Below, one piece after another: positions 22,755 through 36,396 of a stretch of 64,000 nucleotides of DNA (within the stretch, counting starts at the first letter, position 1; each line of letters starts with the position of its first letter). The position numbers and the translations under genes were made by a program. A model generated the notes under the pieces. It was given only the letters and a program-made list of their open reading frames with translations. It searched no databases and had not been told where the DNA came from. The stretch comes from Candidatus Chloroploca sp. Khr17 (GTDB taxonomy: Bacteria; Chloroflexota; Chloroflexia; Chloroflexales; Chloroflexaceae), in the NCBI RefSeq assembly GCF_004138165.1, contig NZ_RYFF01000001.1, forward strand, positions 62,001 through 126,000, given 5' to 3'.

Positions 22755-22913
22755 ATGCAAAGTGTGATCAATCTCTTTCCGCTTATCCTGCTCGGGGTGA
22801 TGTGTCTGTTGACCTTCATCCTCTTACCTTTAACCCGGGAAGAGACGCCGTATATGCAAGAGGAACGCCAGCGTACCGATCGTTTGAAGGTGCCAGTGCG
22901 TGATGAGACTTAG
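22755..22913 (+). CDS. Tiny single-span membrane protein
   Basis: This 52-residue protein has one hydrophobic helix at about 5-24 and a charged, probably cytoplasmic tail (about 26-52). GGAGG with 8 bp spacing precedes the ATG, which is better than the longer frame starting at 22698. It lies 22 bp before the nitronate monooxygenase-like gene. A single-span protein of this type could be an auxiliary subunit of a membrane complex, but I recognise no family. Confidence 0.6.
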   Translation: MQSVINLFPLILLGVMCLLTFILLPLTREETPYMQEERQRTDRLKVPVRDET

Positions 22914-22935
22914 TTGTATTGGCAGGAGAGAAGCT

Positions 22936-24354
22936 ATGTCAGCAGCGTCACTGCCTCCAGTTATTCAAGGGGGAATGGGCGTCGCAATTTCGGATTGGCG
23001 ACTTGCCCGCGCCGTTGCACGCTGCGGTCAACTGGGGGTCGTCTCGGGGACGGGGGTTGATACAGTGCTGATGCGACGGCTGCAGGATGGCGATCCTGAC
23101 GGGCATATGCGCCGCGCCATGGCGCAGTTTCCGATGCCACATGTCGTCGAACGGATGCTCGAACGCTATTTTCTGCCGGAAGGCCGCCCCCCTAACACGC
23201 CCTACGCGCTCTTGCCGATGTTTCGGCAAGAGACACCGCGTACGCGCCAGGAGATCGCGATGCTCGGGGCCTTCGTTGAGGTGACGCTGGCGCGCGAGGG
23301 TCATCAGGGGCCGATTGGCATGAACCTGTTGACCAAGGTGCAACTGCCCAATCTCCCGATGCTCTATGGATCAATTCTGGCCGGGGTTGATGTTGTTTTG
23401 ATGGGGGCGGGCATTCCACGTGATATTCCTGCGGCCCTTGATGCCCTGGCCGAACATCAGCCCGCGACGATGGCCTTTGATGTCGAGGGGTTGCCGTCGG
23501 GGGCAAACGCGTTGCTGCGCCTTGACCCAGGTGAGTACTGGGAAGGCCCAAAGCCGACGTTGCGTCGCCCCGCTTTTCTGGCGATTATTGCGAGTAATTC
23601 GCTCGCAACGATGCTCGCGCGTAAGGCGAGTGGCCGCGTTGATGGATTCGTTGTGGAAGGTCCGACTGCCGGTGGTCACAATGCTCCCCCTCGCGGCGAA
23701 ATGCAACTGAACGAGGATGGTGAGCCAGTCTATGGCCCCCGTGATGCGGTTGATCTCGCGAAAATTCGTGAGCTTGGCTTGCCCTTCTGGGTCGCTGGTG
23801 GCGTTGGTACCCCCGAGGGGTTGCAGCAAGCCCAGGCTGCCGGGGCGGTTGGGATTCAAGTGGGAACCCTCTTTGCGTTTTGCGAAGAATCGGGCCTTGC
23901 TCCCGAATATCGATCTTCGATTCTGGCCGCTGCCGTGCGTGGTGAAGTTCAGGTACGAACCGATCCGCGAGCGTCGCCTACCGGGTATCCCTTTAAGGTG
24001 GTACACTGGTCAGACGATCCGGGGGCTGAAAAACCTCGTGAACGCATCTGCGACCTCGGGTATCTGCGCTCGGCCTATGTGACCCCCGAGGGTGAGATTG
24101 GTTTTCGCTGTGCCAGTGAGCCAATTGCGGCGTTTGTGCAAAAGGGTGGGGCCATCGAAGAGACCGAGGGGCGCAAGTGCCTCTGCAATGCGCTGATGGC
24201 CAATGTGGGCTTTGCCCAACAGCGTCGCGATGGCAGCATCGAGCCGCCTCTCTTGACGAGTGGCGATGAGTTGCAGAATATTGGTGACTTCCTCGGGGGA
24301 CGCACGAGCTACTCAGCAGGTGATGTGATTGATTATCTGCTCGGTGAGCGTTGA
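22936..24354 (+). CDS. Nitronate monooxygenase-like flavoprotein
   Basis: This 472-residue protein has the opening PPVIQGGMGVAIS and the FMN phosphate-binding GGVGTPEGLQQA and AGAVGIQVGT segments of the 2-nitropropane dioxygenase/FabK superfamily, with VEGPTAGGHNAP carrying the catalytic His. It is about 100 residues longer than classic nitronate monooxygenases, with a C-terminal extension containing a Cys pair (KCLCNALM). It could oxidise nitronates or act on an enoyl or other carbonyl substrate. GGAGAG precedes ATG 22936; the upstream ATG at 22900 overlaps the tiny membrane protein. The stop codon forms the loop of a hairpin. Confidence 0.82.
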   Translation: MSAASLPPVIQGGMGVAISDWRLARAVARCGQLGVVSGTGVDTVLMRRLQDGDPDGHMRRAMAQFPMPHVVERMLERYFLPEGRPPNTPYALLPMFRQETPRTRQEIAMLGAFVEVTLAREGHQGPIGMNLLTKVQLPNLPMLYGSILAGVDVVLMGAGIPRDIPAALDALAEHQPATMAFDVEGLPSGANALLRLDPGEYWEGPKPTLRRPAFLAIIASNSLATMLARKASGRVDGFVVEGPTAGGHNAPPRGEMQLNEDGEPVYGPRDAVDLAKIRELGLPFWVAGGVGTPEGLQQAQAAGAVGIQVGTLFAFCEESGLAPEYRSSILAAAVRGEVQVRTDPRASPTGYPFKVVHWSDDPGAEKPRERICDLGYLRSAYVTPEGEIGFRCASEPIAAFVQKGGAIEETEGRKCLCNALMANVGFAQQRRDGSIEPPLLTSGDELQNIGDFLGGRTSYSAGDVIDYLLGER

Positions 24355-24393: not shown

Positions 24394-26613
24394 TCAACGG
24401 CGAACCTCTTCGTCGCGGGCGGATTGGGGAAGGCGACGGCTGATCTGGCTTCCAAGGGCCATGGCGCCCTGGATCGTCCATTCGCGTACCTGGGTGCTAG
24501 CCTGGTGCCAGACCGATTCTTGCACGCCTTTCGCCGCTTTGGGCAGGTGCTGCAATTTTTCGTGCGCCTCGGCCTGCGTGCGTTTGAAGAGGGCAGAATC
24601 GGCGTGCAGACGGGCAGCAAGCGCACGTCGTTGCGCAAAATCTTCCTCGGTAACATACGCTTCGAATGAACGCAAGCCGGCCAATTGAAAGTTGTGTTTC
24701 TTGAAGAGCCGGTAGATCTCCTTGACCCGCTCGATCGAAATATTGCGCCCTAGCGTATAGTCCTCGAAACGTCCATCCATCGCCAGCAACGCCGTTTCGG
24801 CAAGACAGGCGTACGCGGTGCCACGGGGTAGGCCAATGTCGTAGCCGATATCGGTGACGCCCGGAATCAAGACCTCACCGCTCTCGATCACGAGCACATC
24901 CGGCCTCAGCGCAGCTTCGGCGGGGCTGATATCGGGGGGGCGCGCCACATCGCAGATCACGGCACCGGGTTTGCAGCGGCTAATATCAATAATGCGTTGC
25001 CCAAAAGCCGAGGTTGCCGTCACAATCAGATCGCACTGCTCGACCATATCTTCGGTATGCGTCGCGATGACGACCCGTGAGCCGGGGGCCTCTTCCTCGA
25101 TCGCACGTTTGAGGGCGATGAGCTTTTCGGGCTCGATCGAGACCAGCACCACATCATGAATCGCCTGGGCCAGCAGGCGCGCACAGACCGACCCAATCGA
25201 TCCGGTAGCCCCAATGATCATCGCCCGCCCGTGGGCAAGATCCGTCGCGCCCATCTTGATCACCGCCTGTTTGGCCGCTTCGAGCGTGGCTGCAACCGTC
25301 AAACTATTGCCACTGGTGATCGCTAGCTCGGCCTCGTGGGCCACCGTAATGCCGGCGTCGCCAACCACACTGGTAAAAGCACCGAGGCCCATAATGCGTG
25401 CGCCGAGGCGTTCCGACATCCGGGCAGCGATATTCAACTGGCGATAGGTAAAACGCTCGTGGTGGCGCATCATCTGGCGCGGGGTTGCCCCCAGGCTAAT
25501 CAAGTGACCTTCGATCCGTTGACCGGTCGCGGGCGAGACACCGCCCTTGATCTTGCCCAAATAGAGGGGCGGGACATAGGCCGCCACCGCCTCAACCAGA
25601 CCATCCGGCAGATAGCGGGTCCAGCGAAACACCTTATGCTGATGAATGAACTTCACGTTCAGTGGGTGGATGACAAAAGCAAACCGATTGATCCCTGCTT
25701 CACTTGGTTGCAACGGATAGACTGAGGGCATCCAGTTCAATTCGGCCAGCAGATCAAGATAGGTATCTTCGCGGAGGGGGGCATCGGGCGAGGGTCGTAA
25801 CGCGACGAGGGCGGCCTCGATGGCGGCGGCTGAGCTATGCCGAGGATCGGCTCCTTCAAGCAGCGCATCGAAGAGCGCAACCACCAGCGAAACCCCTCGT
25901 TCGCGCAAATCAGCGCGATCCTCTTTGGTCACAGCGGTCGTCACAACAAGTTTATGTTTGAGGTCGCGGGGTGCCCAGCGCCGGATCAGATCAACATCAC
26001 CGGCAAGCACATCGGCCCAGTGGAACTGAGCGGCTGCACGCCGCCCGCCTTTCGTAACGGGCGGGTGGGCGAGTTGGGCAAAGCTGAGTTCGCGCAGGCG
26101 ATCAAGGGTTGGCCCGGCCAGACTATCGAGGGTGATACGGCTCCCGATTCCAGGTAGGGCCGGCACCCCAAAATAGAGCACCGGATCGGCATAACGGACA
26201 GCCCCGACGCGGCGATCAAGCGCATGGCTGAGGCCCTCGTGGTTGAGGCCAGGCACCATCAGCACGCGTTTCTGGCTGAAAATGCCCGGTTGCGCTTTCT
26301 CGACCAAGGTCACGGCCCAGCGTTCAAGCATCGCCCGTGCCCCGCTGCCATCCACCGTGGGCGTATGGTGCGCGGCGGTCAGCAGGCGTTGACCAGGCGG
26401 ATAGGCCCGACTGGCATTGCCCAGGCGTAAACGACCAGGCATCCCTTCAAGACCAATGGCATCAACCTGTCCATCGTGCGCCAGAATCAACTCGCGGGCC
26501 TGTTCAACATCACCGGCACATCCGATCCGGCGCATCGTAATCGCCTGCCCGAGCAATTTGACCGTAAGCTGCTCATCACCTCGACCCGGATGAATAATCA
26601 CGATCGTTTTCAC
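24394..26613 (-). CDS. Acyl-ACP reductase-like dehydrogenase with an extra N-terminal domain
   Basis: This 739-residue protein starts at a GTG preceded by GAGG. From about residue 300 it resembles cyanobacterial long-chain acyl-ACP reductase: a GQRIEG segment, [27 protein letters not shown], the NADPH motif GATGSIG (468-474) and [10 protein letters not shown], in which Cys603 matches the catalytic Cys that carries the acyl group; LGRNIS follows. The first 300 residues and the last 95 are not in the cyanobacterial enzyme. I do not recognise the N-terminal domain. Chloroflexus is known to make wax esters and long hydrocarbons, so reduction of fatty acyl thioesters to aldehydes is a reasonable guess. 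No aldehyde deformylating oxygenase gene is nearby. Confidence 0.72.
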
Positions 26614-34912: not shown

Positions 34913-34994
34913 AGTGCGCCTAAAAACTTCCTCGTACGGATACCATGACCATTATACCATTGCCTGTGCCGCGCACACCCTGCCCCTGCGCCCA

Positions 34995-35037
34995 TCTGCG
35001 CTGGTTTGGCGAGCAAAGCTCGCCAAACCAGCGCAGA
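34995..35037. other. Hairpin, 20-bp stem, 3-nt loop (AAA)
   Basis: The arms 34995-35014 and 35018-35037 are exact reverse complements around AAA. It lies between divergent genes, so it cannot be a normal terminator for either and may be a leader structure of the plus-strand gene. Confidence 0.65.
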
Positions 35038-35148
35038 ATATCTACAAACCCTGTAACCTTTTTGTGCAACGCTGCATCATATCAGCAAAGAAGCGTGCAA
35101 AGCGCACCACTGGAAACAAAAAGTCTCGATTCTAGGAGGATGGTCTGT

Positions 35149-36396
35149 ATGTTGAATGTTGCACAACGTTGGTTTGGTCTGCGGCGGGAGCTTGGTGAGC
35201 GCTATTCACCCCTCTATTTTCTGGCCTCGCTGGGGAACGGAGGCATGGCGGTTGCGTTTTTCATTTATCTGAACTTCTTGGTACCGCATCCCCAGACGCC
35301 GATTGTCACCTTCGATAACATTGCGGCGTTCTTGAATGGTGCTGGTGGCGTACAGAGCTTCCTGGTCTTCTTGGGCATGGCGGGCATTCTCTTCTTTGCC
35401 TTCCGCCATCTGCGCCTGCTCTTCTGGAATTTGCGCGAGTACGCTGCCTTTCGCCGTACGCCGGCCTACGAGCGCATGTTGAACAACAACAGCGCTGTTG
35501 CAACGATGGCGCTGCCATTGACGTTGGGTATGACGGTGAACGTGCTCTTTGCGACCGGGGCCGTCTTTGTGCCAGGTCTCTGGAACATTGTCGAGTATCT
35601 CTTCCCCTTGTCATTGACCGCGCTGCTGCTGGTTGGCATCCTGGCGCTGCGGATCTTCATGAACTACTTTGGCCGGATGCTGATGGCAGGCAACTTTGAT
35701 TATGACAAAAACAACAGCTTCAGCCAATTGCAGGCGGCGATGGCCTTCACAATGGTCGCCGTTGGTCTGGCTGCGCCTGCCGCAATGAGCGACAACAAGC
35801 TCACGATTACGGTCAGCATTCTTGCTGCGATGCTCTTCCTTGGTGCCGCTGTCTTGATTGGCCTGCCCAAGATGATCCTTGGCCTGCGTGGAATGCTGCT
35901 GAACGGTCTGAACCTCGAAGCCGGTGCAAGCCTCTGGATCCCCATTCCAATCCTGACGCTGGCCGGGATCGCCCTGCTGCGCATCAGCCACGGTCTGCAT
36001 CACGGCTTTGGCCTGCACACCACCGAGCCTGGAATGATGTTCTTGCTGACGGGCTCGATCCTGATGTTGCAGCTGAACTTTGCGGTGGGTGGTTTCATTG
36101 TCCTGCACAAAGTTGGCTACTTCCGCACCTACCTGATGGGTGAAGGCCGCAGCCCGGCGAGCTATGCGCTGATCTGCCCCGGTGTTGCGCTCTTCGTCTT
36201 CGGGATGTTCTTCTTGCACGTTGGTCTGGTACAAAACGGCGTCGTTGACAAGTTCTCGTTTGGCTACTATGCCGTGCTTGCCCCGCTGGTTGCCGTGCAG
36301 CTTGTCACGATTGCCTCGATTTTCCAACTGGACAGCAAGCTCATTCGGCCTGAGGCCGCGGTTGCCCCGGCGGTTGATCCTGTCGCAGCGCGATAA
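35149..36396 (+). CDS. Polytopic membrane protein, possibly TsoY/TDT-like
   Basis: This 415-residue protein has about ten membrane helices, with a soluble loop at about 80-105. AGGAGG with a 9-bp spacer precedes the ATG at 35149, better than the upstream in-frame ATGs. The helix-rich pattern and the segment SPASYALICPGVALFVFG resemble TsoY-type proteins and distantly the tellurite-resistance/dicarboxylate (TDT) carriers. I recall that TsoY members can carry selenocysteine; here the residue is Cys. The family call is from memory of a short motif and needs a search. It is monocistronic, closed by a 30-bp-stem hairpin. Confidence 0.55.
   Translation: MLNVAQRWFGLRRELGERYSPLYFLASLGNGGMAVAFFIYLNFLVPHPQTPIVTFDNIAAFLNGAGGVQSFLVFLGMAGILFFAFRHLRLLFWNLREYAAFRRTPAYERMLNNNSAVATMALPLTLGMTVNVLFATGAVFVPGLWNIVEYLFPLSLTALLLVGILALRIFMNYFGRMLMAGNFDYDKNNSFSQLQAAMAFTMVAVGLAAPAAMSDNKLTITVSILAAMLFLGAAVLIGLPKMILGLRGMLLNGLNLEAGASLWIPIPILTLAGIALLRISHGLHHGFGLHTTEPGMMFLLTGSILMLQLNFAVGGFIVLHKVGYFRTYLMGEGRSPASYALICPGVALFVFGMFFLHVGLVQNGVVDKFSFGYYAVLAPLVAVQLVTIASIFQLDSKLIRPEAAVAPAVDPVAAR

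Follow-up and report, generated by a model that had tools for sequence, protein, structure and literature searches.

A gene of Candidatus Chloroploca sp. Khr17 probably encodes an acyl thioester reductase that forms the aldehyde for Chloroflexota wax-ester synthesis and carries a non-catalytic N-terminal module with the fold of the acyl-ACP reductases (AAR). The kind of enzyme, an acyl thioester reductase, is known; in the variant described here it is fused to a probably inactive AAR-fold module. In the proposed mechanism, the C-terminal half would bind NAD(P)H, and Cys603 would take the acyl group from acyl-ACP or acyl-CoA, which would then be released as the fatty aldehyde. In relatives with a coupled wax-ester synthase (WS/DGAT), a separate step would convert the aldehyde to the alcohol, and the synthase would esterify the latter to wax esters. 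The N-terminal 300 residues would act as a diverged AAR-fold structural or regulatory module.

Gene and reductase half

The window (the whole stretch of 64,000 nucleotides analysed here) contains the open reading frame at 24394-26613, as a preliminary description of this DNA had reported. Its strand, left unstated there, is the minus strand, on which 739 codons are open from the GTG at 26613; the plus strand is interrupted by stops over the same interval. A GAGG lies a few bases 5' of the GTG. The fused protein occurs as two paralogues: type A, to which the window gene belongs, has a C-terminal extension, and type B is approximately 690 aa long. An M-K start is common to the window gene and its relatives. 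In Ca. C. asiatica (L032) and Ca. C. mongolica (L033), the protein is 97% identical to the window protein. Comparison with these two species of the same genus gave dN of ~0.01-0.02 and dS of ~0.28-0.32, with dN/dS of ~0.04-0.07 across both halves. As this is purifying selection within the genus, we take the gene to be real and used, with both halves maintained. The positions of all features are listed in Table 1.

Table 1 Features of the fused reductase gene (window positions)
Feature	Position	Strand	Basis or remark
Type A fused acyl thioester reductase gene	24394..26613	-	739 aa, GTG start, stop 24394-24396
N-terminal domain, residues 1-304	25702..26613	-	Predicted structure AAR-like; no catalytic Cys or GxxGxxG
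Acyl thioester (acyl-ACP) reductase domain, residues ~308-660	24634..25692	-	Family and PDB matches
Dinucleotide loop G468-A-T-G471-S-I-G474 (GxxGxxG)	25192..25212	-	Alignment
Cys603 codon, in YACLAE	24805..24807	-	Aligned with C294 of Synechococcus AAR
C-terminal extension, residues 690-739	24397..24546	-	Aligned with the tail-anchor-like segment of most relatives

By homology and conserved catalytic residues, the domain from about residue 308 to 660 is assigned as an acyl thioester reductase. The PigE model NF053554 (NCBIfam) matches residues 310-674 with 182 bits (1.8e-53), a match limited to profile positions 1-365 and below the cut-off of 850 bits. The long-chain acyl-ACP reductase model TIGR04058 (NCBIfam) matches residues 348-643 with 67.5 bits (1.2e-18), below its curated cut-off of 449.7 bits. 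A sequence search of the PDB found PigE (4ppm, 4.6e-29) and AAR (6jzq, 1.3e-13), and a search with the family profile found the same entries (2.1e-50 and 7.5e-37, respectively) and the carmabin-pathway TAD (E 1.2e-11); the AAR entries 6jzu and 6jzz were also among the matches. Over the aligned parts, this half shares ~31% identity with PigE and 26% with Synechococcus AAR. By sequence, it is closer to the thioester-reductase domain of PigE than to cyanobacterial AAR. The preliminary description had matched the protein from about residue 300 to cyanobacterial AAR; the thioester reductase part of that claim stands (TIGR04058, 6jzq), but the closest relative of known role is PigE/TamH.

The two motifs named in that description, the NADPH loop at 468-474 and the acyl-carrying Cys603 in YACLAE, are both present. 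In the sequence alignment, Cys603 faces C294 of Synechococcus AAR, which is said to accept the acyl chain (PMC9594044), and the Ser of the C294S entry 6jzz. The Cys is invariant in the reductase alignment A3. The full-length model has a pLDDT of 69, falling to ~30 at 579-624, too low to place Cys603, whose position opposite C294 is that of the sequence alignment. A structure search with the model of the reductase half placed TAD (Z 20.3) and AAR (Z 17.6) on top, with an rmsd of ~10 for a weak model.

PigE and TamH carry a thioester-reductase domain like this half, with the same GxxGxxG and Cys, PigE being the best family match. They are likewise fusion proteins that reduce a thioester to the aldehyde: this reaction is described for PigE (PMC8341465), and TamH has an analogous domain (PMC9594044). 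Their partner is a PLP aminotransferase in the context of pyrrole alkaloids (prodigiosin, tambjamine), whereas that of the window protein is an AAR-like module in a wax context; unlike PigE, the window protein has no aminotransferase Pfam match. Cyanobacterial AAR (PDB 6jzq, 6jzu, 6jzy) shares the nucleotide loop, the catalytic Cys, and probably the fold with the reductase half, but the window protein has an extra N-terminal domain and a C-terminal extension, and its genome is without deformylating oxygenase. The carmabin-pathway TAD (PDB 9e4s, 9e4u, 9e50, 9e56) is the best structural match of both halves and, unlike the window protein, is a domain of a nonribosomal peptide synthetase.

The aldehyde-deformylating oxygenase (PF11266), already reported missing from the window, is absent from the whole genome of the window (G000) and from 17 others, with a positive S. 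elongatus control, and the alkane branch was set aside on this ground. Most type A proteins have a C-terminal hydrophobic segment with arginines or lysines behind it, a pattern typical of tail anchors. In the genus of the window and in its closest relatives, this segment is only weakly hydrophobic.

The N-terminal module

Neither Pfam nor NCBIfam has a model that matches residues 1-300, and a plasmid search likewise yielded no name for the domain. The preliminary description had called it unknown and absent from the known enzyme. It does have relatives: stand-alone proteins of ~300 aa, sharing ~26-33% identity with it, are found in Bacillota and in further families of Chloroflexota, mainly f19. 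A model of the domain by itself, built with 12 sequences, reached a pLDDT of 86 and a pTM of 0.87. VIA-align of this model gave Z 13.3 for TAD and 12.9 for AAR over 243-268 residues, and 9.8 for the next unrelated entry. The strands and helices are ordered as in the C-terminal half, but the counterparts of its helices 320-345 (the acyl-pocket helices) are missing. The column equivalent to the catalytic Cys was set via the conserved E266/E606 and the helix order; the fused copies mostly have Ala or Asp there, also Gln, and each of the 17 stand-alone copies has Asn. GxxGxxG is not kept in N-domain copies, which carry invariant charged residues (Asp/Glu/Lys) of their own.

From the model, the N-domain is probably a diverged AAR-fold module. 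As it is without the Cys, GxxGxxG, and the acyl-pocket helices, it is probably inactive, and we consider it most likely a catalytically dead structural or regulatory partner of the reductase. The inactive-looking twin would then be a case of an AAR-fold module retained as a non-catalytic partner. The "diverged AAR" assignment is drawn from structure, since sequence comparison alone gives no relation: profile comparison of the N-domain with AAR gave an hhalign score of 16.7 (shuffled mean 16.1), and a profile search of the PDB with the N-domain listed no AAR among the matches. The sequence profiles of the two halves show no similarity either, and they did not prove the N-terminal half to be a duplicate of the C-terminal half. 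HMM and structure searches of both halves, proposed in the preliminary description as a check, bore out the reductase half by sequence (PigE, AAR, TAD) and the fold of the N-domain by structure but not by profile.

The lack of a sequence-profile link to AAR would also fit another two-domain alpha/beta fold that is not of the AAR type, with a role of its own, for instance in ligand sensing. The folds of periplasmic binding proteins and amino-acid dehydrogenases likewise reach Z ~9, and the stand-alone copies often lie beside an NTP transferase and a PAP2 phosphatase, not beside AAR. We hold this reading to be unlikely, as the Z scores of AAR and TAD exceed those of every other entry by ~3 units over the aligned length given above and the order of secondary structure is, missing helices apart, that of the C-terminal half.

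A further proposal of the preliminary description was that the N-domain reduces the aldehyde further. In such a bifunctional, alcohol-forming reductase, the C-terminal half would supply the aldehyde and the N-domain would help to reduce it to the alcohol. The fusion is ancient and retained, the N-domain keeps invariant charged residues of its own, and no separate aldehyde reductase is coupled to the type A gene, all of which would suit this scheme. It is nevertheless improbable, because the N-domain has no GxxGxxG loop, no Cys at the equivalent place, and no acyl-pocket helices, and because AARs also exist free-standing, without the N-domain. The N-domain may or may not bind the substrate carrier, the other role suggested there. 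A bolder reading would place the N-domain and its stand-alone relatives in a new AAR-fold family that has a ligand or chemistry of its own (Asn for Cys, invariant Asp/Glu/Lys). Fused to a working reductase, it would give a wax-ester reductase of two modules, tail-anchored and possibly alcohol-forming, that differs from FarA/AcrB/FcrA; we regard this as unlikely. The non-catalytic AAR-fold partner is the reading retained below.

Nearly all f19 genomes with the stand-alone N-domain protein also encode a free-standing AAR, at another locus, and some other families have just one of the two. This co-occurrence is suggestive, with most of the genomes belonging to one family. At loci L067, L070, L072, L074, and L075, the stand-alone homologue adjoins a gene for a MobA-like NTP transferase and/or a PAP2 phosphatase; these neighbours may point to the original function of the N-domain.

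Wax synthase genes and the window's organism

In eight genomes of three genera, a WS/DGAT wax-ester synthase gene lies directly downstream of type A on the same strand. Among the genomes whose junction was read, six have an ATGA overlap and one more has overlapping frames; the HHxxxDG motif of the coupled WS/DGAT is intact. Among 158 genomes of the class, WS/DGAT is present in 19 of the 24 with type A and in 0 of the 32 with only other forms (Fisher's test, 3.7e-17 for genomes and 1.2e-8 for genera). These counts ignore shared ancestry, but the association stays strong when genera are counted. Three of the five type A genomes without WS/DGAT are those of the window's genus, and the other two are 82-86% complete. 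Outside the class, all three type A genomes found have WS/DGAT. As WS/DGAT also occurs in Chloroflexota families without this reductase, the dependence runs one way at most. Families f18, f31, and f85 have strong WS/DGAT matches and no AAR-type reductase listed. WS/DGAT proteins can form triacylglycerol rather than wax. We consider the type A reductase a strong candidate for the aldehyde-forming step of Chloroflexota wax-ester synthesis. The wax-ester role suggested in the preliminary description is thus backed by the coupling in relatives and by the co-occurrence, with the window's genus itself having no recognisable WS/DGAT.

Genera g4 (G007) and g32 (G064) and family f2 (G042) are taken here to be Chloroflexus, Roseiflexus, and Herpetosiphon, respectively. 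Classical FarA/AcrB reductases were considered as the source of the alcohol and set aside, as none of 18 genomes exceeded the cut-off of PRK07201 (AcrB-type). Strong NAD_binding_4 matches are limited to G056, G042, and G030, and two of these matches lie in frames of 1400-1500 aa resembling synthetase reductase domains. HMG-CoA reductase (FcrA-like) is found as one copy in 16 of the 18 genomes and as two copies in both f64 genomes. It is uninformative because it is present irrespective of WS/DGAT. FarA, AcrB, and FcrA have the same proposed pathway position as the type A reductase, the supply of the alcohol precursor to WS/DGAT, but are of the SDR or HMG-CoA-reductase type, and none is AAR-type as described (PMC11948995). 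In one survey, bacteria with WS/DGAT had FarA in 1%, AcrB in 31%, and FcrA in 26% of cases (PMC11948995). As these enzymes are so infrequent, other alcohol-supplying reductases probably exist, and a reductase of a different family whose gene is translationally coupled to that of WS/DGAT would close part of this gap. In Roseiflexus and Chloroflexus, wax esters serve as storage lipids, and they are used as biomarkers of hot springs (PMC4400912, PMC12542760); no paper in the literature searched assigns a reductase for the alcohol part of these esters.

For the window's organism, the picture differs from that of the relatives. Neither its genome nor its genus (three genomes, all with type A) has a match to WS/DGAT (PF03007/PF06974). 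The downstream neighbour of the window gene is a convergent nitronate-monooxygenase-like gene (22900-24354). It was examined as a partner and dismissed, as among the loci compared it recurs only in the same genus. At 34945-36396 (+), the window has an ORF of 483 aa without Pfam match at 1e-5.

Fatty alcohols are found on bacteriochlorophyll of the Chloroflexus type. The fatty aldehyde or alcohol could have a non-wax use in the window's organism, e.g., in the long-chain alcohols that esterify bacteriochlorophyll or in alkyl/ether lipids, and the WS/DGAT partnership would belong to the relatives only. This is a plausible alternative, although we give it clearly less than an even chance. It agrees with the retention of type A in three genomes without WS/DGAT, with the unrelated convergent gene downstream, and with the altered tail segment of the genus. 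The closest relatives of the gene in the tree are, however, the WS/DGAT-coupled ones. Moreover, genus g4, presumed to be Chloroflexus, has no PF03007 match, yet wax esters are reported in Chloroflexus (PMC4400912), so a missing WS/DGAT does not exclude wax. If the type A reductase has the wax-ester role here as well, the window's genus would use another synthase, as Chloroflexus must; otherwise, its products would go elsewhere.

Paralogues and free-standing reductases

A quick tree of the reductase half groups all fused copies with one free-standing Chloroflexales AAR (L085) at a support of 0.85, and type A has a support of 1.0. The tree of the N-domain likewise unites the fused copies in a single clade. 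The window's genome holds both type A and type B, which are 51% identical; its type B gene (L002) lies at G000:C62:24132-26150 (L093:6130-8172). In the window's genome, type B is followed at a distance of ~80 nt by the gene of an alpha/beta hydrolase. The hydrolase gene is the neighbour of type B elsewhere in Chloroflexaceae too, in Chloroflexus-like genomes, and the two overlap by 4 nt (GTGA) in one genome. This hydrolase is a candidate for another acyl-transfer partner.

A NUDIX protein (Pfam match) is encoded just downstream of type B at L090:5550-6152. In two genera, the genes upstream of type A and divergent from it are zinc-finger NUDIX-like (L102:6180-6749, L103:6009-6524, and L112), as recognised by sequence appearance and a shared cluster. 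The free-standing AARs of f19 belong to a conserved gene row, whose other members encode an alpha/beta hydrolase, a hexapeptide-repeat protein, a V4R protein, a Ras-like GTPase, and a DUF4388 protein. One such row spans L076:2298-7657, with parallels in L077-L084 and L088, and in most of them a response regulator and a very large protein follow.
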